From Leucobacter sp. OLIS6 (lineage in GTDB: Bacteria > Actinomycetota > Actinomycetes > Actinomycetales > Microbacteriaceae), in the NCBI RefSeq assembly GCF_002752355.1, contig NZ_MRAV01000014.1, forward strand, positions 434,001 through 498,000: a stretch of 64,000 nt of DNA, given 5' to 3'. The position numbers and the translations under genes were made by a program. The notes beneath the pieces were generated by a model, which made no database searches, was not told the DNA's origin, and was given only the letters and a program-made list of their open reading frames with translations. Of the stretch, positions 9,828 through 22,623 are shown piece by piece (the stretch's first letter is position 1; each line of letters starts with the position of its first letter).

Positions 9828-10576
9828 GCCCCGTCGGTGCGGTTCCGGGACGGAGCCGCACCGACGTTCGCCGCGACGAATCGGGCCGGCGTGGTTCCGA
9901 CGATGCGGCCGAACTCGCGCGTGAGGTGGGCCTGATCGCTGTAGCCGGTGCTGAGCGCCGCGGCCTCGACGGAGGATCCGGAGCCGAGCAGCCCTCTCGC
10001 ACGCTCCGCGCGCAGCACTCTGCGCAGCGCGGTGTACCCGTAGCCGAAGTGCTGCAGCATGCGGCGCTGCAGCTGCCGTTCGGAGTATCCGAGCACCGCA
10101 GCGGCCCGTGCGGCGGTCGCGCCTCGCCGAGCCAGGCGGAGCGCCTCAGCGGTCCAGCCGGGTGCGCCGATGTCGAACGGTTCGGCGGATCGGGCGCGGA
10201 GCGCCGACGTGGACGGCTCCCCCGCGGCGACGCCGAAGGACTCACCGAGCACGCGCAGCAGTCGTTCGCCGCGGCGCCGCACCTCGGGCGCCAGCACGTC
10301 GGTCGCGGGCACCAGGCTGTCTCGCAGCTCGGACGCGTCGAGCTCGAGCGCCCGACCGGCGTGCCCGGGCGTGAAGCGGAGCCCGATCGTGGCGCCGTGG
10401 ATGCTGCCGCTGCCGAGGAGCCAGCGCGTCGAGGGGCCGGCGACCACGAGTTCGTCGTCGCGCAGGATGATGTCGGCGCTGCCGTCGGCCGGGATCACCG
10501 CGGGCGCACCTGCGCCGACCGAGCGCTCGGAGCGCCAGAGCACTCCGAGGCCGGGGAGCTCGATCTCGCGATACAC
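9794..10576 (-). CDS. AraC-family transcriptional regulator
   Basis: 260-aa regulator with a C-terminal double helix-turn-helix: ATAARAAAVLGYSERQLQRR and AALSTGYSDQAHLTREF (residues about 155-240), the latter being the diagnostic AraC/XylS signature. The N-terminal part reads like the AraC ligand-sensing domain but does not identify a ligand. Start is GTG at 10576, only 15 bp after the uvrB stop on the same strand, so it may be read through from uvrB. Its 3' end overlaps the VOC gene convergently by 34 bp. Confidence 0.88.
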   Translation of the reverse strand: MYREIELPGLGVLWRSERSVGAGAPAVIPADGSADIILRDDELVVAGPSTRWLLGSGSIHGATIGLRFTPGHAGRALELDASELRDSLVPATDVLAPEVRRRGERLLRVLGESFGVAAGEPSTSALRARSAEPFDIGAPGWTAEALRLARRGATAARAAAVLGYSERQLQRRMLQHFGYGYTALRRVLRAERARGLLGSGSSVEAAALSTGYSDQAHLTREFGRIVGTTPARFVAANVGAAPSRNRTDGAQAAGSAASGA

Positions 10577-10591
10577 GGCGGTGCCCGCGCT

Positions 10592-12682
10592 CTAGCGGTG
10601 CCCGGCCTGGTCCATGCTGCGCAGCTCGCGCTTGAGCTCGGATACCTCGTCGCGGAGGCGTGCCGCGAGCTCGAACTTGAGTTCCTCTGCGGCGGTGAGC
10701 ATCTGCTGGGTGAGGTCCGCGATGAGCTCTTCGAGCTGGGCCGCGCCCTCGCCTGCGATCGCTCCGGCGCGTGCCGCGGCTTTGCCCTTCGCCCGCTGCG
10801 GCGAGACCGCCTTGCGCTGCGCGTGGGCGCCGGTGCGCGAGAGCACGTCCTCGGTGTCCGCCGCCTCGCGTGCGAGGAGCTCGGTGATGTCGCCGATCTT
10901 CTTGCGCAGCGGGGTCGGATCGATGCCGTGCTCGGCGTTGTAGGCGAGCTGCTTCTCGCGGCGGCGGTCGGTCTCGTCGATGGCCTCGCGCATGGAGCGG
11001 GTGATCTTGTCGGCGTACATGTGCACCTCGCCCGACACGTTTCGGGCAGCGCGGCCGATGGTCTGGATGAGCGAGGTCGAGGATCGGAGGAAGCCCTCCT
11101 TGTCGGCGTCGAGGATCGAGACGAGCGACACCTCGGGCAGGTCGAGGCCCTCGCGCAGCAGGTTGATGCCGACGAGCACGTCGAAGATGCCCGCGCGCAG
11201 TTCGGTGAGCAGCTCGACGCGCCGGAGCGTGTCGACGTCGGAATGCAGGTAGCGGACGCGGATGCCGGCCTCTTCCATGAAGGTGGTCAGCTGCTCGGCC
11301 ATCTTCTTGGTGAGGGTCGTGACGAGCACGCGCTCGTCGCGCTCGGCACGGATGCGGACCTGCTCCAGCAGGTCGTCGATCTGGCCCTCGCTCGGCTTCA
11401 CGACGATGCGCGGGTCGATGAGCCCGGTCGGGCGGATGATCTGCTCGACGACGCCGTCCGCGCGCTCCATCTCATACTTGCCGGGCGTCGCCGAGAGGTA
11501 GACGACCTGGCCGACCCGTTCCTGGAACTCGGAGAACTTGAGCGGCCGGTTGTCGAGCGCGCTCGGCAGGCGGAACCCGTGCTCGACCAGTGTCCGCTTG
11601 CGCGACGCGTCGCCCTCGTACATGGCGCCGATCTGCGGCACCGTCACGTGCGACTCGTCGATGACGACGAGGAAGTCGTCGGGGAAGTAGTCGAGCAGGC
11701 AGTGCGGGGCCTCGCCGGGCTGCCGGCCGTCGATGTGCCGCGAGTAGTTCTCGATGCCGGAGCAGAAGCCGATCTGTTCCATCATCTCGAGGTCGAAGGT
11801 GGTGCGCATGCGCAGGCGTTGCTCCTCGACGAGCTTCGTCTGCTCTTTCAGCTCGCGGGTGCGCCAGTCGAGCTCCTCGGCGATGGTGCCCATGGCGCGG
11901 TTCATGACCTGGCGGCTGGCGACGTAGTGGGATCCCGGGAACACCGACACGGCGTCGACCTGGCGGATGACCTCGCCCGTGAGCGGATGCAGGTAGTAGA
12001 GCGCCTCGATCTCGTCGCCGAAGAACTCGATGCGGATCGCGTTCTCCTCGTACATGGGGATGATCTCGACCGTGTCGCCGCGCACCCGGAAGTTGCCGCG
12101 CACGAACTCGATGTCGTTGCGCTGGTACTGCATATCGACGAAGCGCCGCAGCAGCACGTCCCGGTCGAGGCGGTCGCCCACGACCAGCGGGACCATCGCC
12201 TCGTAGTATTCCTCGGGCTTGCCGAGGCCGTAGATGCACGAGACGGTGGAGACCACGACCACATCGCGCCGGCTCAGCAGCGCGTTGGTGGTCGAGTGCC
12301 GCAGACGCTCGACCTCGGCGTTGACCGACGAGTCCTTCTCGATGAAGGTGTCGGTCTGCGGAACGTAGGCCTCGGGCTGGTAGTAGTCGTAGTAGCTGAC
12401 GAAGTACTCGACCGCGTTGTTGGGCAGCAGGCTGCGGAACTCGTTCGCGAGCTGCGCCGCGAGCGTCTTGTTGTGCGCGAGCACCAGCGTGGGACGCTGC
12501 ACCTCTTCGATGAGCCACGCCGTGGTCGCCGACTTGCCCGTGCCCGTCGCGCCGAGCAGTACGACGTCGGTCTCGCCGGCGTTGATGCGCTGCGCCAGCT
12601 CGGCGATCGCCTGCGGCTGATCGCCGCTCGGCTCGTATTCGCTGATGACCTCGAACGGGCGCACACTACGTGTCGGTTCCAT
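10592..12682 (-). CDS. uvrB: excinuclease ABC subunit B
   Basis: Helicase-like damage-verification subunit of nucleotide excision repair. The 696-aa protein has Walker [10 protein letters not shown] near residue 40, the beta-hairpin [12 protein letters not shown] that probes DNA, helicase motifs including a DESH box (VIDESHVT), and a C-terminal UVR motif ([17 protein letters not shown]) that binds UvrC. I chose ATG 12682 ([12 protein letters not shown]) as the family start; the longer frame upstream is the antisense of the AfsR-like gene. It is away from uvrA, as usual in actinobacteria. No full LexA site was found at its start. Confidence 0.97.
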
Positions 12683-12724
12683 GCGTTCGAGGCTACTCCG
12701 TACCACTGACATCGATGCCCTGGA

Positions 12725-12730
12725 TACACT
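12725..12730 (+). promoter_or_regulatory. leaderless promoter -10 of the AfsR-like gene
   Basis: TACACT (within GATACACT) followed by seven bases and the ATG at 12738. No ribosome binding site precedes the ATG. The region lies between the divergent uvrB and AfsR-like starts, which are only 55 bp apart. Confidence 0.45.
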
Positions 12731-12737
12731 CGACCCC

Positions 12738-15700
12738 ATGCGTTCCGAGTCTCCCCGTCTCGCGGTGCTCGGTCCCGTCCGCCTCGACGGCCGGGATCCC
12801 GGCGGCCCGATGCTCCGGGCGCTCCTCGTCGCCCTCGCCCTCGAACCTAGCGGCGCACCGCGTTCGGTCGATGCGCTCTCCGCCGACCTCTGGGGGGACG
12901 ACCTCCCCCAGAATCCGAAGGCCTCGCTGCAGAGCCTCGTCTCCCGGGCACGGGCCGCCGGCGACGGAGGCATCATCACGACCCTCCCGGGCGGGTACGC
13001 CCTCGAACGTCCACGGGGCGAGAACCACCGGGAGATCACCGATGCGCGCAGCGACCTCGACCTCGCCCGCGAGGTCGCAGACCGCCCGGTGGGCGGAGAT
13101 CGACGTGAACGCGAACCGGCCGACCGGGTGCAGGCCCTCGACGCGGCGCTGATGCTCTGGACCGGGGAACCCGGCCGGGACCTCGGCGACTCCCCCGTCG
13201 CGGAGGACCTCCGGGTCGCGGCCGCCGGTCTGCACGACCGCCTGCGCACCGAGCGGGCGCGAGCGCTCGCGACGACCGGGCGAGCCGACGACCTCGACGC
13301 GGCCGCACGCGAGCTCCGCTCGCTGCTCACGGCGCACCCGCTCGACGAGCGGCGGCACGTCGAACTCATGGAGCTGCTCGCCCACGCCGGACGCGCCGCC
13401 GACGCCCTCGCGGTCTACGCGGAGTTCCGCACTCGCCTTCGCGACGAGCTCGGCGCCTCGCCGAGCACCGCGATCACCGAGCTCAACGCCCGGATCCTGC
13501 GCGGCGATGGTGGGCTCGACACGCCTCGCGACCGTCCCGGGAGCACCCCCGCCCCCGCCGCAGCCGCGGGCGGTGCGGCGAGCGGCACCACCCGCAGGGC
13601 CCTCGTCAGGATCGGGCTCCCCGTCGCTCTGAGCCCGCTCATCGGCCGCGACTCCGATATCGACGAGACCTCCGCGCTGCTCCGCACCCACCGGCTCGTC
13701 ACCGTCCTCGGAGCCGGCGGCCTCGGCAAGACACGCCTCGCCGCAGCCGTCGCCACGGCCTCCGACGCTCCGTCCGTCGTCTTCGTGCCGCTCGCCGGCG
13801 CACGCGAATCCGCGGATGTACTCCCCGCCATCGGCGGAGCGCTCGGCATCAGCGAGACCACCACGAGCACGCGGCTCGCCGACGCCCGCGCGCAACCGGA
13901 CCTCCGCCAGCGCGTGCTCTCCGCGCTCGGTGAACGCGACACCCTGCTCGTGCTCGACAACTGCGAGCAAGTCGTCTCGGGTGTCGCGTCGTGGGCGGCC
14001 GAGGCGCTCGCTTCGGTGCCCGGCCTGCGGATCCTCACGACGAGCCGCACCCCGCTCGCGCTCGCAGCCGAGGTCTGCCGCCCCCTCGATCCGCTCGCCT
14101 ACGACGAGGTCACCGGGTCCGCGGTCCGCCTCTTCGTCGAGCGCGCGCGGGCCGTCAGGCCGGGCGCGGATCTCCCGCTCGAGGTCGTCGCCCGCCTGTG
14201 CGCGCGCCTCGACGGCCTCCCGCTCGCGATCGAACTGGCGGCCGCGCGGATCAGGACGATGAGCCCCGCGCAGATCGAGGCCCGGCTCGAGGACCGCTTC
14301 GCGCTGCTCACCGTCGGGGACCGCGCGGCACCCGAGCGGCACCGGACCCTCCAGGCCGTCATCGAGTGGAGCTGGGAGCTGCTCGAACCCGTCGACCGCC
14401 GCGCTCTGGCGATGCTCTCGGTGCTGCCGGGCGGCCTCTCGCTCGAGACCGCGAACGGCGTCCTGCGCTCCGATGGCGTGTGCGCGAGCGAGACCGAGGT
14501 CGACGAGGTCCTCGACCGGCTCGTCTCGCAATCGCTGCTCGTGGTGTTCGAGGACGCGGGATCCGGCACGATCCGCTTCCGCATGCTCGAAACGGTCCGG
14601 GAGTTCGGTCTCGCCCGGCTCCGGCTCGACGGTATCGAGGACGCGGCCTGGGACGCGGTGCTCGCTTGGGGGCGAGGTTTCGCGGACGCACGATCCCCGG
14701 GGATCTTCGCGCTGCCCGGCTCGCTCGGAGCTCCGGCCTACCGGATCATCCGAGCCGAGCAGGACAACCTGCTCGCAGCCCTGCGCCGCGCGGTGCTCGA
14801 CGACCGCCGCAGCGAGGCGGTGCTGCTGCTCGGCGTGCTGGCCCAGTCGTGGACGGTTCGCGGCGCGTTCACCGAGTTCACCCGCACCGCGTCCGAAGTC
14901 TTCGACACCGTCGCTCGCGCCGCACGTCGGACGGACGGCGCCGAGGTCCCGAGCGACGCGCTCGCGCTCTGCCTGGCCACCTGCGCGGTCGGGCTCGGCG
15001 GCACCGATCCCGGCCGCGCGGTCCGCGCCATCGCGCTCCTGCGCCGGCTGCGCCGCAGCGATCCCGCGCTGAGCCCGCTGTGGCAGGGCGTCTCGCACAT
15101 GCTCGAGTCCGGGCTCGATGCCGACGCCACCCGGGCCGAGCTCGAGACGCTGCGGTCCGGCCCCGACGCCGACGCACGGCTCTTCGCCGAGATGCTCGTC
15201 GCCCAGCTCGCCGAGAACGACGGCGAGCCGGAGACCGCGCGCATCGCCGCCGAACGCACCTGGCGGCTCGCGACCTCCGCCGACGAGCCGTGGATCGCGG
15301 CCATGGCCGCGCACTCGCTCGCGCAGCTCGCCAGCCAGTCCGCACGGCCGGCCGAGGCGCTGCACTGGCTCGACATCGGCACCGCCGGCTTCGAGGATTT
15401 CGGGGCCGAGGACGAGATGGGCGAGCGCGGCTGGCTCCGCGGCCTCGCGCTGATCTCGCTCGGACGCGCGGACGAGGCCGAAGCGATGTTCCGCGACCTC
15501 ACCGGCGCCGTCGATCGCACCGACGACGGGATGGGCCTCGCGTCGATCGGCTGGTTCGGCATCGCCGAGATCGAGCGATCCCGCGGACGGTTCGACGACG
15601 CGATCCTGAGCTTCGGTCGCGCCATCTCCGAGTTCCGCGAGAGCGATCAGCGCGCATCTCCCTGGTACCTGATTGCCCTGGCCGGCTACGTCTCGGCCGC

Positions 15701-18141: not shown

Positions 18142-19269
18142 ATGACGTCGATCGCCTCGCGTCTCGGACGCGCCCCGCTGCTCGTGCTCGTCCTGCTGCT
18201 CGCCGCGTGCTCCGGCGCGCCGCCGGCCGATCCACCACCAGCGACCTCCGCGTCGGGCTCCGGAGTGCTGCCGAGCGAGGATGATCTGCGGACCGCGGTC
18301 GAGTCCGCGCTGGCCGGTTCGGGCGTGCCCGGCGGCGCGGTCGTCGTCTCCGATGCCGCGGGAGGCTCGACGACCGTGGTCTTCGGTGAACGCGCCCCCG
18401 GCGAACCGGTGACGGCGGACACGCGCTTCGCCTACCGGAGCATCACCAAGTCCTTCGTGGGCACGGTGATCCTGCAGCTCGCCGACGAGAAGCGGCTGTC
18501 GCTCGAGGATCCGGTGTCGAAGTACGTCGCCGGGGTGCCGAACGGCGACCGGATCACCATCGCCGAGCTCGGCGACATGCGATCCGGGCTCGCGAACTAC
18601 TCGGCGAGGCCCGGCCTCGGCGCGATGCTCGGCAAGGATCCGGCTCGCGACCCGCAGACCTCCGAGCTCCTTGCGCTCTCCTACGCCGTGAAGCCCGTCG
18701 CGCCCGGCACCGCCTACGAGTACTCGAACACGAACACCCTGCTGCTCGGCGAGGTGATCCGGAAGGTCACCGGGGACGATTGGGTCACGGCCGTCGATCA
18801 GCGACTGCTGCGACCGCTGAAGCTGGAGAGCGTGGGCAACGGATTCGTCTCGGGGAGCGAGAACGCGACGGGGTTCCAGCTCGCCGACGGCAAGATCGCC
18901 GAGCAGCTGCCGGTGGTCGCACCCGGCTGGTTCGGAGCGGCGGGCGGACTCACCGGCAACGCCGCGGACCTCGCCGTCTGGGGGCGTTCGCTGGGCTCGG
19001 GGTCGCTCGTCTCGCAGGGCGCCCAGCGGTGGCGACTGGATCAGTTCGGCTCGACCGCCGACGATCCCGCCAGCCCGCTCTACGACGCCTACGGCTTCGC
19101 GCTGGGCCGCACCGACGGGTGGCGCGGCCACACCGGCACGGGCCTCGGATTCCAGGGTCTCGTCATGTACGACCCCGCGACGGAGCACGTCATCGCGGTG
19201 CTGATCAACGGCACGGGCGAGAACCCGGATCTCCCCGCCACCGTGTTCGAGGCGGTCCGGAAGCTCTAG
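18142..19269 (+). CDS. serine beta-lactamase/D,D-peptidase-family lipoprotein
   Basis: 375-aa exported lipoprotein: a short basic N-terminus, a hydrophobic stretch and the lipobox LAAC with Cys23. The catalytic set of the penicillin-recognising serine hydrolases is intact: Ser100-x-x-Lys103 (SITK), Tyr194-Ser-Asn (YSN), and His330-Thr-Gly (HTG). Family members are D-alanyl-D-alanine carboxypeptidases, class C-like beta-lactamases or esterases; YSN and HTG fit the first two. It sits between the exporter genes and ddl/alr, so a role in trimming peptidoglycan stems or in beta-lactam tolerance is a fair inference. The true substrate is open. Confidence 0.87.
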   Translation: MTSIASRLGRAPLLVLVLLLAACSGAPPADPPPATSASGSGVLPSEDDLRTAVESALAGSGVPGGAVVVSDAAGGSTTVVFGERAPGEPVTADTRFAYRSITKSFVGTVILQLADEKRLSLEDPVSKYVAGVPNGDRITIAELGDMRSGLANYSARPGLGAMLGKDPARDPQTSELLALSYAVKPVAPGTAYEYSNTNTLLLGEVIRKVTGDDWVTAVDQRLLRPLKLESVGNGFVSGSENATGFQLADGKIAEQLPVVAPGWFGAAGGLTGNAADLAVWGRSLGSGSLVSQGAQRWRLDQFGSTADDPASPLYDAYGFALGRTDGWRGHTGTGLGFQGLVMYDPATEHVIAVLINGTGENPDLPATVFEAVRKL

Positions 19270-19336
19270 GCCGAGTGCCCGGCCGGAAGTCCGAGGGAGT
19301 TCCGGGCTCAGCAGGAAGGTGCCTCCCCGAGGCCTC

Positions 19337-20323
19337 CTACAGAGGCCGGATCCCCTCGCGAGCGGCTGCGATCAGCTCGCCCACAAGACCCGCGTAGTCG
19401 AGGCCGACCGCGGCGTACATTCGCGGCACCTGCGACTGCTCGGTCATGCCGGGCGAGGTGTTGATCTCGTTCAGCACCACACCGTCGTCGGTCGCGAAGA
19501 AGTCGAAGCGCGCGACGCCGGCGCAGCCGAGCGCCTCGTAGAGCAGCACGGCCGCCCGCCGGATCGCTCCCTCCTCGCGCGGGTCGAGCGATGCCGGGAT
19601 CGTGAATTCGGCGCTTCCGTCGTATTTCTCGGCCCGGTCGAACACCCCGCCGGGAACCACGCCGATCTCGAGGGTCGATCCGACTCGCAGTCCACCGGAC
19701 GCGTCCCGGAACACGGCGATGTCGACCTCGCGGCCGCGCACGTACTCCTCGACCAGCACCGTATCGCCGTAGGCGCGGGCCTGCTCGACGGTCGCGACGA
19801 GGTCGGAGCGGTCCGCGACGACGAAGACGCCGTTGCTCGATCCCCCGGCGGTGGGCTTCACCACGAGCGGCGGCCTGAGCTCCGAGGCGAACGCGGCCCC
19901 GACGGGCGCCGCCCATCCGCCGGCCAGCGCGCCGCGGGAGGTGGCGATGCCGAGATCGTCCGCGATGAGCTTCGTCGCCCACTTGTCCATCCCGAGCGCG
20001 CCCGCCCGCACCGGGGATCCGACGAAGGGGATCCCGGCCATGCGCAGCAGGCCGGCGATCGCCCCGTCCTCGCCGTCGACGCCGTGCAGCACCGGGAACG
20101 CGAGCTCGCAGTCCGCGATGCGCGCGAGCGCCTCGTGCGCCGGCAGCCGGTGCCCGTCATCGGCGAGCCAGCGCCCGTCCCGGGCGATCGTGATCGGTAC
20201 CGCTTCGAGTCCGAGGTCCGCGACGGCACGGACGACGGATGCCGCCGAAGCGATCGACACCTCGTGCTCGTCGCTGATCCCGCCTCCGATCACGGCGACT
20301 CGGGTGGTGGGGGTCTGCGTCAT
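19337..20323 (-). CDS. ddl: D-alanine--D-alanine ligase
   Basis: ATP-grasp ligase joining two D-Ala for the peptidoglycan stem. The 328-aa protein shows LHGVDGEDGA, MDKWATK, VKPTAGGSSNGV, the omega-loop EKYDGSAEF, and the Mg-binding NEINTSPGMT. The EKY omega-loop fits D-Ala-D-Ala (or D-Ala-D-Ser) ligases rather than the D-Ala-D-Lac type. ATG 20323 overlaps the alr stop in an ATGA, so it is coupled to alr. The longer frame upstream is a shadow of alr. Whether this is the only ddl in the genome cannot be told. Confidence 0.94.
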   Translation of the reverse strand: MTQTPTTRVAVIGGGISDEHEVSIASAASVVRAVADLGLEAVPITIARDGRWLADDGHRLPAHEALARIADCELAFPVLHGVDGEDGAIAGLLRMAGIPFVGSPVRAGALGMDKWATKLIADDLGIATSRGALAGGWAAPVGAAFASELRPPLVVKPTAGGSSNGVFVVADRSDLVATVEQARAYGDTVLVEEYVRGREVDIAVFRDASGGLRVGSTLEIGVVPGGVFDRAEKYDGSAEFTIPASLDPREEGAIRRAAVLLYEALGCAGVARFDFFATDDGVVLNEINTSPGMTEQSQVPRMYAAVGLDYAGLVGELIAAAREGIRPL

Positions 20324-21459
20324 GCTGCTGCTCCTTGCGCGTGGTTCGAGGGTTCGATGGTGCGGTGGATCCGCGGGATCCGGCTCCCGAGCCGGGTCAC
20401 GATCTCGTGCGGGATCGTGCGCGCCCAGGCGGCCCACTCGGCGACGGTGGGTTCGCCCTCCGCACCGGGGCCGAACACGGTCACCTGCTCGCCCGGCTGC
20501 AACAGGTCCTCGCCCGTGTCGACGACGACCATGTCCATCGAGAAGCGTCCGACGATCGGCCTCCGGCGTCCGCGCACGAGCACCTCCGCACGGCCCGACG
20601 CCTCGCGGGGCAGCCCGTCGCCGTAGCCGACCGGGAGCAGCGCGAGGTGGGTGCGGCCCGACGCGACGAAGTCGAGGCCGTAGCCGACACCCGTGCCGGC
20701 ACCCACCTCGCGCGAGGACACGACCCGTGAGGTGAGGGTGAGCGCGGGCTTCAGGAGGTCGGTGCTCGCGGACGGGTCGATCCCGAACAGTCCCGCGCCG
20801 ATCCGGTGCACGCCGAACCCGCCGCCCACGCCGGTGAGCGTCGCGGCCGTCGCCGCGAGGTGCGGCACGGCCGGCGTCAGCCCGCGCCGCGTCGCGGTGC
20901 GGATCGCGTTCGCGAACACCAGTCGCTCGCGCGCGTTCTGCGGGTCGGAGGGATCGTCGGCGCACGACATGTGTCCCATGATCCCGACCACCCGCACCGA
21001 GCCCGAGGCCTCCGCCTCCCGGGCGAGCGCGCAGAGCGGTGCCCAATCGGCTGCGGCGCAGCCGTCCCGGGCCATTCCGACGTCGATGTGCAGGTGGATC
21101 CGGGCGGGCGATCCGGCGCGCGCCGCGCCGCGAACGACCGCCACCAGCAGTTCGGTGCTCGGCACCGCCAGGTCGATGCGCCGCCGCACCGCCCCCTCGA
21201 AGTCCGCCTCGGGCGTGTTCAACCAGCTGAGGATCGGCGCATCGACGCCGCCCTCGCGCAGCGCGACCGCCTCCTCGATCGAGGTGACGCCGATCGATCT
21301 CGCACCGGCCTCGAGCACGGAGTGCGCGATCGCGCCGTGGCCGAACGCGTCGGCCTTCAGCACGGCCATGAGGCGATCGCCGGTGAGGCGCGCGAAGGCG
21401 GCGGTGTTCTCGCGGATCGCGTCATCGTGCACGATGAGTTCGGAGACGGTTGGCTGCAT
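20320..21459 (-). CDS. alr: alanine racemase, PLP-dependent (divergent)
   Basis: Makes D-alanine from L-alanine, feeding the ddl gene behind it. The 379-aa fold type III enzyme has the PLP lysine Lys35 in LKADAFGHG and the opposite catalytic base Tyr260 in GVGYGLDF. Two family positions differ from the textbook form: the KANAYGHG Tyr is Phe here, and the PLP-phosphate motif usually written NSAA reads ATAA at residues 203-206. It is likely still an amino-acid racemase, but it may be a specialised copy or use another substrate such as serine. Promoter is the shared divergent one at 21492. Confidence 0.88.
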   Translation of the reverse strand: MQPTVSELIVHDDAIRENTAAFARLTGDRLMAVLKADAFGHGAIAHSVLEAGARSIGVTSIEEAVALREGGVDAPILSWLNTPEADFEGAVRRRIDLAVPSTELLVAVVRGAARAGSPARIHLHIDVGMARDGCAAADWAPLCALAREAEASGSVRVVGIMGHMSCADDPSDPQNARERLVFANAIRTATRRGLTPAVPHLAATAATLTGVGGGFGVHRIGAGLFGIDPSASTDLLKPALTLTSRVVSSREVGAGTGVGYGLDFVASGRTHLALLPVGYGDGLPREASGRAEVLVRGRRRPIVGRFSMDMVVVDTGEDLLQPGEQVTVFGPGAEGEPTVAEWAAWARTIPHEIVTRLGSRIPRIHRTIEPSNHAQGAAA

Positions 21460-21491
21460 GTGCAGCAGTCAAGCGGGTCGGATGTTGCCGC

Positions 21492-21540
21492 AGCCTATGC
21501 CGCTTTCGATACGCGGACGGTACGCCTCGCTTCATAGGCT
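21492..21540. promoter_or_regulatory. symmetric divergent promoter alr-ddl / murG-like
   Basis: AGCCTATG at 21492-21499 and CATAGGCT at 21533-21540 form a perfect 8-bp inverted repeat. Each arm contains the -10 hexamer TAGGCT facing outward: on the plus strand at 21535-21540, six bases before the murG-like ATG (leaderless), and on the minus strand at 21497-21492, giving about a 25-nt leader for alr. Both promoters therefore share identical -10 boxes and the 33 bp between them. Confidence 0.6.
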
Positions 21541-21546
21541 GGCGCC

Positions 21547-22623
21547 ATGACCCGCTATCTGCTCGCCGGCGGCGGGACCGCCGGCCACGTCTCCCCGCTG
21601 CTCGCGGTCGCCGACCGGATCCTCGAACGCGATCCCGAGGCCTCGGTCCTCGTCCTCGGCACGGAGGAGGGGCTCGAGGCACGGCTGGTCCCGCAGCGCG
21701 GACACGAACTCAGTACGATCCCGCGGGTGCCGTTCCCGCGCAGGCCGGACCTGGACGCCGCGCGGTTCCCGGCGCGATTCCGACGCGCGGTCGCGCTCAC
21801 GCGCGAGATCCTGCGCGACCGGCGCATCGATCTGCTGATCGGTTTCGGCGGATACGTCTCGGCCCCGGCGTACGTCGCAGCTCGGCGGGAACACGTGCCA
21901 TACGCGGTGCATGAGGCGAACGTCCGGCCCGGCCTGGCCAACGTCTGGGGCGCCCGCCGGGCCGCGGCAGTCGGCACGGCGTTCCCCGGAACTCCGCTGC
22001 GCGGTGCCGAGGTCGTCGGCATGCCGCTGCGCGCCGAGATCGCGTCGCTCGATCGCGAGGCCTCCCGCTCGGAAGCCGCCGAGGTCTTCGGACTCGATCC
22101 GCACCGTCCCGTGCTGCTGGTGTTCGGCGGGTCGACCGGTGCGCGCCGGATCAACGACGCCTTCGCGGGGTCCTGGCCCGCGATCGCCGCTGCGGGGTGG
22201 CAGCTCCTGCACGTGACCGGCGAGCAGAAGATCGGCGAGGTGGAGGCGAGCAGCGCCGACGCCCGCACGGTGGTCCCCTACGTCGACCGGATGGACCTCG
22301 CCTACGCGCTCGCCGATCTGGTCGTGTGCCGTTCCGGCGCGGCGACCGTGAGCGAGATCAGCGCGCTCGGCATCCCGGCGGTCTACGTGCCCTATGCGGT
22401 CGGCAACGGCGAGCAGGCGCTCAACGCCCGCTCTGCGGTGGAGGCCGGCGGAGCCGTGCTGATCGCCGACGCGGACCTCACTCCGCACACGGTGTCCGAG
22501 CGGATCGTGCCGCTGCTGCACGACGCGGACCGGCGCCTACGCATGAGCACGGCCGCATCCGTGCTCGGCGCGCGGGATGCCGCCGGCCGTCTGCTCGCTC
22601 TCGCCGAGCGCACGCTCGGCTGA
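21547..22623 (+). CDS. murG: MurG-like UDP-GlcNAc:lipid I glycosyltransferase
   Basis: 358-aa GT-B glycosyltransferase of the MurG family, which adds GlcNAc to undecaprenyl-PP-MurNAc-pentapeptide at the inner face of the membrane to make lipid II. Seen: GGGTAGHVSPLLA at the N-terminus, GFGGYVSAPAY, FGGSTGARRIN, and the donor-binding RSGAATVSEI...VGNGEQALNA. The usual HEQN-x-x-PG loop reads HEANVRPG. MurG normally lies in the ftsW-murG-murC division cluster, so this isolated copy beside alr and ddl may be a second, specialised MurG. Leaderless start at 21547; it converges on ndk. Confidence 0.88.
   Translation: MTRYLLAGGGTAGHVSPLLAVADRILERDPEASVLVLGTEEGLEARLVPQRGHELSTIPRVPFPRRPDLDAARFPARFRRAVALTREILRDRRIDLLIGFGGYVSAPAYVAARREHVPYAVHEANVRPGLANVWGARRAAAVGTAFPGTPLRGAEVVGMPLRAEIASLDREASRSEAAEVFGLDPHRPVLLVFGGSTGARRINDAFAGSWPAIAAAGWQLLHVTGEQKIGEVEASSADARTVVPYVDRMDLAYALADLVVCRSGAATVSEISALGIPAVYVPYAVGNGEQALNARSAVEAGGAVLIADADLTPHTVSERIVPLLHDADRRLRMSTAASVLGARDAAGRLLALAERTLG

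Follow-up and report, generated by a model that had tools for sequence, protein, structure and literature searches.

Introduction

Two groups of described glycopeptide-resistance systems lie closest to the genes reported here. In the VanO type, VanR-O and VanS-O govern VanH, a ligase of the VanA/B/O clade and VanX, the set for D-Ala-D-Lac, together with vanK and vanY; in the VanC/E/G/L/N types of enterococci and clostridia, a ligase is paired with a racemase (the membrane-bound serine racemase VanT), in company with a D,D-peptidase and a two-component system. The housekeeping alr, ddl and murG genes form a third point of comparison. We analysed a stretch of 64,000 nucleotides (nt) of Leucobacter sp. 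OLIS6 (Microbacteriaceae; assembly GCF_002752355.1, contig NZ_MRAV01000014.1, positions 434,001 to 498,000 of the forward strand), which we call the window throughout (G000:C11:434001-498000 in our numbering, G000 being the window's genome of 3.33 Mb). It contains a two-gene operon, alr2-ddl2, encoding paralogues of alanine racemase and D-Ala-D-Ala ligase behind a promoter box of VanR-O type.

The pair shares features with each of these systems and differs from all of them. As in the VanO type, the closest family of the regulators encoded in the same genome is VanR-O/VanS-O, the same 43-nt box stands 64 or 65 nt before target genes, and the genome has VanY and VanZ genes; the unit differs, however, in having no VanH, no VanX and no ligase of the VanA/B/O clade, with an alanine-racemase paralogue and a ligase of its own clade, in which the Lys-Tyr motif is kept, in their place. 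(Neither VanH nor VanX was found among the scanned cassette genes, this being the extent of the VanH search in the genome.) The VanC/E/G/L/N types are alike in combining a ligase with a racemase, in the D,D-peptidase and two-component system that many of our loci also have, in the Phe at the column of Escherichia coli DdlB Y210 with Tyr216 kept, and in a racemase altered at the Tyr354 column; furthermore, the sampled VanT has an N-terminal acyltransferase-3 domain, and models of that type match near 31 of the 73 alr2-ddl2 loci collected here. They differ in that our trees place neither Ddl2 with the one sampled VanG nor Alr2 with the one sampled VanT, that Ddl2 has Gln and not Arg at the 282 column and Alr2 has His and not Asn at the 354 column, that Alr2 consists of racemase domains only, with no membrane domain, and that the regulators are of VanO type. 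The housekeeping proteins are alike in fold and family, but Alr2 and Ddl2 form separate clades, are second copies, have a box-bearing promoter and carry changed residues at specificity columns. Because defining features of VanC/VanG and of VanO were looked for and not found in this pair, we file alr2-ddl2 outside both, as a putative target-remodelling system for inducible resistance to glycopeptides.

A promoter box before an overlapping racemase-ligase operon

The operon (19337-21459, minus strand) begins with alr2 (20320..21459), which encodes a 379-aa alanine-racemase paralogue (TIGR00492, 235.5 bits), followed with a 4-bp overlap by ddl2 (19337..20323), which encodes a putative D-Ala-D-X ligase paralogue of 328 aa (TIGR01205, 262 bits). 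Each is a second copy: alr1 lies at C1:3020 and ddl1 at C17:269922, and Alr2 and Ddl2 are 41% and 35% identical to their products. The element that matters most, absent from an initial annotation of the window, is the 43-nt promoter box at 21482..21524 (minus strand), whose first base is 65 nt before the alr2 start and which contains the core CGTACCG-TCCG-CGTATCG (21507-21524, minus strand).

For comparison we assembled 62 loci from an Alr2 search of named genomes and added loci from further relatives, giving 73 after filtering; L048, L049, L050 and L052 were dropped as duplicates (of L066, L069, L070 and L080), and L062, L063 and L065 are also outside these counts, L062 and L065 having an alr without Ddl2. 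The alr2/murG2 intergenic region is conserved among the aligned loci, and the box core, where present, is an 11-bp tandem repeat (CRTAYCG-NNNN-CGTATCG) whose distance to the alr2 start, counted from its first base, is 64 or 65 nt. From alr2 promoters only (n=19; the window and 18 loci) we built a 43-nt matrix, and scanning the 73 loci with it (2,816,900 positions) yielded 30 sites with scores greater than 10, spread over 26 loci. Of these sites, 22 precede alr2 by 64 or 65 nt, six lie near VanY genes, one falls in L051 between murG2 and a separated ddl2, and one is in L073. The reversed-sequence control over the same loci reached a maximum of 8.3, with nothing above 10, and leave-out scores, obtained after removing every training row of 80% identity or more, ran from 37 to 54. 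The window's alr2 box, itself in the training set, scores 52.3 (leave-out 45.7) and is found once in the 64-kb window, where the next best score is -7.0. Scans for sigma-70 and terminator consensus gave nothing useful.

Three of these loci deserve separate mention. The L051 site (L051:12352, score 42.1) is a separate box, 139 nt upstream of the start taken for ddl2, as though co-regulation of the pair had to be preserved. In L073 (Leifsonia sp. ALI-44-B; 10153-11458) the box, with a score of 38.4, stands 64 nt before the ATG of a DUF418 membrane protein gene, a possible candidate for a new regulon member. A perfect core also occurs in Leifsonia shinshuensis (L087:20355), some 10 kb from an alr2 without a box of its own.

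The same box in van loci and the regulators of the genome

Five Embleya and Streptomyces plasmid loci, chosen for a VanR 88-91% identical to that of the window's genome, contain nine sites scoring 51.0-61.6, none of them in the training set; the next best score there is -0.7. One site lies 23-24 nt before vanR in all five loci, and five of the nine have a reading frame of more than 120 aa starting at 64 or 65 nt, namely vanH (two), a FemAB-family vanK-like gene (one) and VanY genes (two), while the other four have no such frame at that distance. When box-bearing genes of the carriers, same-genus genomes and plasmids were tested for VanY, nine of ten passed the Pfam cut-off and the tenth, in L205, fell just below it. 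Three of the plasmid loci (L211, L212 and L214) are VanR-O loci with the box in which neither vanH nor a ligase is annotated, the annotation of these stretches being sparse.

The window's genome encodes, on contig C6, a response regulator whose best family is VanR-O (469 bits; next 171) and a kinase whose best family is VanS-O (458 bits; next 171), followed by a VanZ-family gene; on contig C16, the box (two mismatches in the core, matrix 28.7) also stands 64 nt upstream of the ATG of a VanY lipoprotein gene. Searching seven genomes for the exact core gave two occurrences in the window's genome, at alr2 and at a penicillin-binding protein (PBP) gene, and placed it upstream of the regulator orthologue in four of the six others; none of the seven contains the reversed core pattern. 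Eight of nine same-genus genomes searched have a regulator at least 79% identical, and all eight have the core, with 0-2 mismatches, 23-24 nt before it. The ninth (G035, best regulator 60%) has the other alr2 type, the one present in G003 as well, with its own neighbouring two-component system. The PBP site (G000:C11:215114; L209:6115-6132) begins 74 nt before the gene of a class A PBP with PASTA domains, and the matrix did not find the rest of the promoter there.

The regulon link is our strongest result. Regulators of the OmpR family bind 11-bp repeats, and from the shared box, its spacing and the regulator type we consider it very probable that alr2-ddl2 belongs to a VanR-O-type regulon, with VanR itself presumably binding the box.

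Several points weigh against this reading. Both regulators fall under the curated NCBIfam cut-offs (505 and 720), as does an Embleya VanR encoded near vanH-vanI-vanX (455.5). The sites at the genome's own vanR and vanY come from selected stretches and not from a whole-genome matrix scan, and at vanR the core (one mismatch, 23 nt before the gene) is present and the full promoter is not (matrix -9.3). Genome G003 has a VanR-O orthologue with the box core, but its alr2 is of the other type and has no box. The box before vanH of Embleya NBC_00896 had been seen prior to selection, so that the plasmid test was blind for four of the five loci, and no site was found in a sixth locus, that of Actinomyces oris, whose regulator is less similar (61.5%; best score 0.3). 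Finally, just 26 of the 73 loci have a box scoring above 10; the Leifsonia aquatica loci L095 and L097 are among those that do not, and the Nocardioides loci adjoin NarL-type regulators instead.

Conserved neighbours of the pair

Ddl2 accompanies Alr2 in 73 of 73 loci, a count that holds after the filter that removed L062 and L065. The two genes are adjacent on one strand in 69, mostly overlapping, and in the other four (L051 of G027, at 12491-13519, and L088, L090 and L092 (Agromyces)) ddl2 is close by on the opposite strand. Within 3.5 kb, a VanX-type model matches directly upstream on the same strand in 16 of the 73 loci; within the same range a VanY-N-type model matches in 12 and a histidine kinase with a response regulator lies in 36, beside the acyltransferase-3 type membrane protein mentioned above. 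The clusters behind the neighbour models come from these same loci, and a few hits were compared with Pfam, so that the counts show position and are not independent discovery; Pfam confirmed representatives of the families (PF01427 for two of VanX type, PF02557 for several of VanY type and PF01757 for two acyltransferases). The neighbours point towards glycopeptide resistance. Moreover, a D-Ala-D-Ala dipeptidase beside a ligase making that same dipeptide would be futile, and the VanX-type match upstream of the pair in those 16 loci suggests that the product of Ddl2 is not D-Ala-D-Ala.

Residues at the specificity columns

In Ddl2 the DdlB Y210 column holds Phe in 75 of 75 sequences (F228 in the window, codon 19640..19642, minus strand) and the L282 column Gln in 75 of 75 (Q298, codon 19430..19432, minus strand); housekeeping actinobacterial Ddl have Tyr at the first in 29 of 29, and Met (25) or Leu (4) at the second. 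The 75 are the window and 74 loci, L063 and L064 included. VanG (4fu0) has F252 and R324 at the two columns, and VanA, VanB and VanO also have Phe and Arg; Lys-Tyr, kept in all 75 Ddl2, is present in VanG and not in VanA/B/O. We take VanG D243, F252 and R324, and N696 of VanT, to be residues with a role in specificity (VanG and Bst residue numbers being counted from alignments).

Alr2 has F39, T204 and H351, which we take to be columns of the pyridoxal-phosphate and substrate pocket, just as Y43, S204 and Y354 of Bst Alr are presumably contact residues. At the Tyr354 column, His is found in 70 of 71 Alr2 (H351 codon 20407..20409, minus strand), Asn in the sampled VanT and in 4ecl, and Tyr in 11 of 15 other Alr, of which two (L034 and L035) themselves adjoin Ddl2-like genes; the 71 omit the truncated L120, L122 and L123 as well as L062, L063 and L065. 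The initial annotation had singled out three departures as hints of specialised copies. The Phe for Tyr in its KADAFGHG motif (the Tyr43 column) is real and typical of the family, occurring in 68 of 71 Alr2 versus one of 15 other Alr. Of its ATAA for NSAA, Thr for Ser is common in Alr2 (67 of 71) but also occurs in seven of the 15 others, and Ala for Asn was rejected as a sign of specialisation, Alr1 of the same genome and six of the 15 having it too. Its HEAN for HEQN in MurG2 falls away, as MurG1 of the same genome also has HEAN. Its general suggestion of specialised copies is supported for alr2 and ddl2, with second copies in the genome and changed residues at the specificity positions.

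Of the 75 Ddl2, 26 were used for trees, as were 25 Alr2-type rows. The Ddl2 tree was a quick one containing few Van references; in it, 25 of the 26 Ddl2 fall on one side of a branch (SH-aLRT, the approximate likelihood-ratio support, 99), in a clade apart from VanA/B/O/G and from housekeeping Ddl; Alr2 branches among actinobacterial alanine racemases and not with VanT, for which the one sequence sampled has a long branch. The Ddl2 outside the clade comes from L063 (G074), where the alr-ddl pair is more distant and the ligase has the Phe and Gln all the same. An AlphaFold2 model of Ddl2 (mean pLDDT, the predicted local confidence, 89) is closest to Mycobacterium tuberculosis Ddl and also matches VanA, LmDdl2 and VanG; the fold does not decide the specificity. 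Profile scores were rejected as support for a VanG or VanT assignment: Ddl2 scores 227 bits with the NCBIfam VanG model (cut-off 495) and is outscored by Ddl1 (261.5), and Alr2 scores 189 bits with the vanT-G model (cut-off 460) and is outscored by Alr1. A "vanT" label from RGI on a Tsukamurella plasmid (L133, 31.7% identity) belongs to an alr near tsaE and looks like an over-call.

We think it reasonably likely that Ddl2 makes something other than D-Ala-D-Ala. That the second residue is D-Ser we favour by a little. The Phe is that of VanG and of VanA/B/O alike; at the Gln column VanG has Arg, and the Gln and His are neither housekeeping residues nor those of VanG and VanT.

The closest competitor accepts the same VanR-O regulon and lets Ddl2 go on making D-Ala-D-Ala, with Alr2, Ddl2 and MurG2 raising precursor supply, as a decoy or as compensation of flux while VanY removes D-Ala. 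The Lys-Tyr of D-Ala-D-Ala ligases in every Ddl2, the likeness of the model to M. tuberculosis Ddl, the passing of the TIGR01205 cut-off, a murG2 that would suit a flux role and a PF01427 search that found no VanX in the window's genome would all fit it. It is, however, at odds with the invariant Phe and Gln at two columns where housekeeping Ddl and VanG differ and with the VanX-type match directly upstream of the pair in 16 of the 73 loci, and we consider it rather unlikely. Alr and Ddl are also the two targets of D-cycloserine, and an operon supplying insensitive spare copies of both could protect the cell from that drug; both targets are indeed encoded in one operon with active-site changes in each, and, among solved structures, Alr2 is matched best by alanine racemase 1vfh, which we take to come from the cycloserine producer Streptomyces lavendulae. 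Neither a VanR-O box of the kind found at vanH, vanK-like and vanY genes nor VanX- and VanY-type neighbours in many loci would be expected on this explanation, and its probability is low. The reading that we prefer remains that of a target-remodelling pair with an altered dipeptide product.

Distribution of the pair and the rest of the cassette

The nearest named match is Leucobacter sp. Ag1 (Alr2 96% identical), and carriers are found in Microbacteriaceae, Nocardioides and a few others, including Cellulomonas and Acaricomes. The alr2-ddl2 unit is accessory, since Alr2 at 50% identity or more occurs in 13 of 54 same-genus genomes and a Ddl2-like gene (E<=1e-55) in 18 of 199 Microbacteriaceae genomes.

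The initial annotation had grouped four cell-wall genes as a compact cassette. All four are open frames matching their families, and the part of the cassette that is conserved as a unit is alr2-ddl2. Divergent from alr2, murG2 (21547..22623, plus strand; TIGR01133, 260.6 bits) encodes a second MurG, 56% identical to MurG1, whose gene at C11:706262 lies beside an open reading frame that looks, by eye, like FtsW. The initial annotation would have been refuted had these been the genome's only alr, ddl and murG genes, and they are not. Among the 199 Microbacteriaceae genomes (four of the window's genus), the window's genome alone has two MurG at E<=1e-110. We rejected the idea that MurG2 belongs to the unit in general, as it is encoded near Alr2 in just eight of the 73 loci; in one of the eight, Acaricomes phytoseiuli (L119:6989-7387), the only MurG2 open frame found beside alr2-ddl2 is a fragment of 132 aa. 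The murG2 start lies 23 nt from the box (window 21507-21547), the same distance as that from vanR to its box (L053 also 23; L067 and L069 38), and murG2 may stand where vanR otherwise stands, served by a bidirectional promoter.

Convergent with ddl2 is the gene of an S12 D,D-peptidase-like lipoprotein (18142..19269, plus strand; PF00144, 184 bits), whose best solved structures are the alkaline D-peptidase 4y7p (102.7 bits) and the D-alanyl-D-alanine carboxypeptidase 1cef (101.7 bits). Genes for an AfsR-like regulator and a DrrAB exporter adjoin the cassette, as the initial annotation had said. Besides the window's genome, Leucobacter sp. Ag1 is the only one in which the D,D-peptidase and AfsR were found near Alr2, and DrrAB at 99-100% identity is likewise limited to these two; a weaker DrrAB-like pair (55/48%) lies about 5 kb from ddl2 in L057. 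We found no support for the D,D-peptidase, DrrAB or AfsR as core members, either in the conservation of neighbours or in the single box of the window, which stands at alr2. These observations bear on a further possibility, that the pair is the self-protection part of a secondary-metabolite locus with AfsR and DrrAB: the adjacency of regulator and exporter, with the DrrAB-like pair of L057, would speak for it, but the rarity of AfsR beside Alr2 and the placing of the box make it improbable. Support for the B-type peptidoglycan of the Microbacteriaceae, the other role offered in the initial annotation, we consider highly improbable: many carriers do belong to this family, but as a minority of it, and Nocardioides, with a peptidoglycan of another type, Cellulomonas and Acaricomes carry the pair as well, a patchy distribution that contradicts it.

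Discussion

We propose that alr2-ddl2 is the target-remodelling operon of a glycopeptide-response regulon governed by VanR-O/VanS-O, making D-Ala-D-X, probably D-Ala-D-Ser, in replacement of VanHAX; on the sequence evidence set out above we think this the likely explanation as a whole. The more general idea of cell-wall antibiotic tolerance in the initial annotation is thereby supported and sharpened, by a VanR-O-type promoter common to vanH, a vanK-like gene and vanY. VanK, VanY and VanZ have established jobs in glycopeptide resistance. In the mechanism that we envisage, the VanR-O/VanS-O-type two-component system, the genes of which lie at another place in the genome, would sense a glycopeptide or related cell-wall damage, and VanR would bind the 11-bp tandem repeat starting 65 nt before alr2, so switching on racemase and ligase. 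Alr2 and Ddl2 would then supply D-Ala-D-X, most likely D-Ala-D-Ser, which MurF would put into lipid II instead of D-Ala-D-Ala, weakening glycopeptide binding and conferring resistance on the window's species. The VanY encoded behind the same box could trim leftover D-Ala-terminated precursors, with assistance from VanZ, and MurG2 may sustain the flux of lipid II.

With regard to phenotype, the genome of L. aquatica DSM 20146, which we take to be the same strain as ATCC 14665, carries alr2-ddl2 (L097); with no box above 10 at this locus, its regulation must differ from that proposed for the window. The vancomycin minimum inhibitory concentration (MIC) listed for ATCC 14665 in Table 1 of PMC6321868 is 12 (susceptible being 2 or less). 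A clinical Leifsonia sp. is given an MIC of 1 in PMC8442807, its genotype not being known, which tells the other way; Leucobacter holotrichiae strains, also of genotype not known, are reported as susceptible, and Leucobacter sp. HNU-1 as intermediate. The single match of genotype and phenotype, in L. aquatica, is suggestive only.

Considering how such a pair could have arisen, we lean slightly towards the view that actinobacteria evolved a pair for D-Ala-D-Ser (or another polar D-amino acid) independently of enterococcal VanC/VanG, using alr and ddl paralogues of their own; the pair would have a new ligase signature, F210/Q282 (DdlB numbering), and a racemase signature, F43/H354 (Bst numbering), and would stand behind a VanR-O promoter where other actinobacteria keep vanHAX. 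The pair may be an undescribed way to evade vancomycin-like antibiotics; no description of it was found in the open-licence literature of PubMed Central, judged by listings and abstract openings and with most subscription papers lying outside that collection. Its sequence signatures would be useful to catalogues of resistance genes, because the family models used here score the pair best as ordinary alr and ddl, and the promoter box could serve to map VanR regulons. If the proposal is true, environmental actinobacteria would possess a further chemical solution to glycopeptide resistance, built from different parents and operated by the same switch as VanO, and this might explain some of the low-level vancomycin non-susceptibility in Microbacteriaceae, such as that listed for L. 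aquatica ATCC 14665 (MIC 12, PMC6321868).

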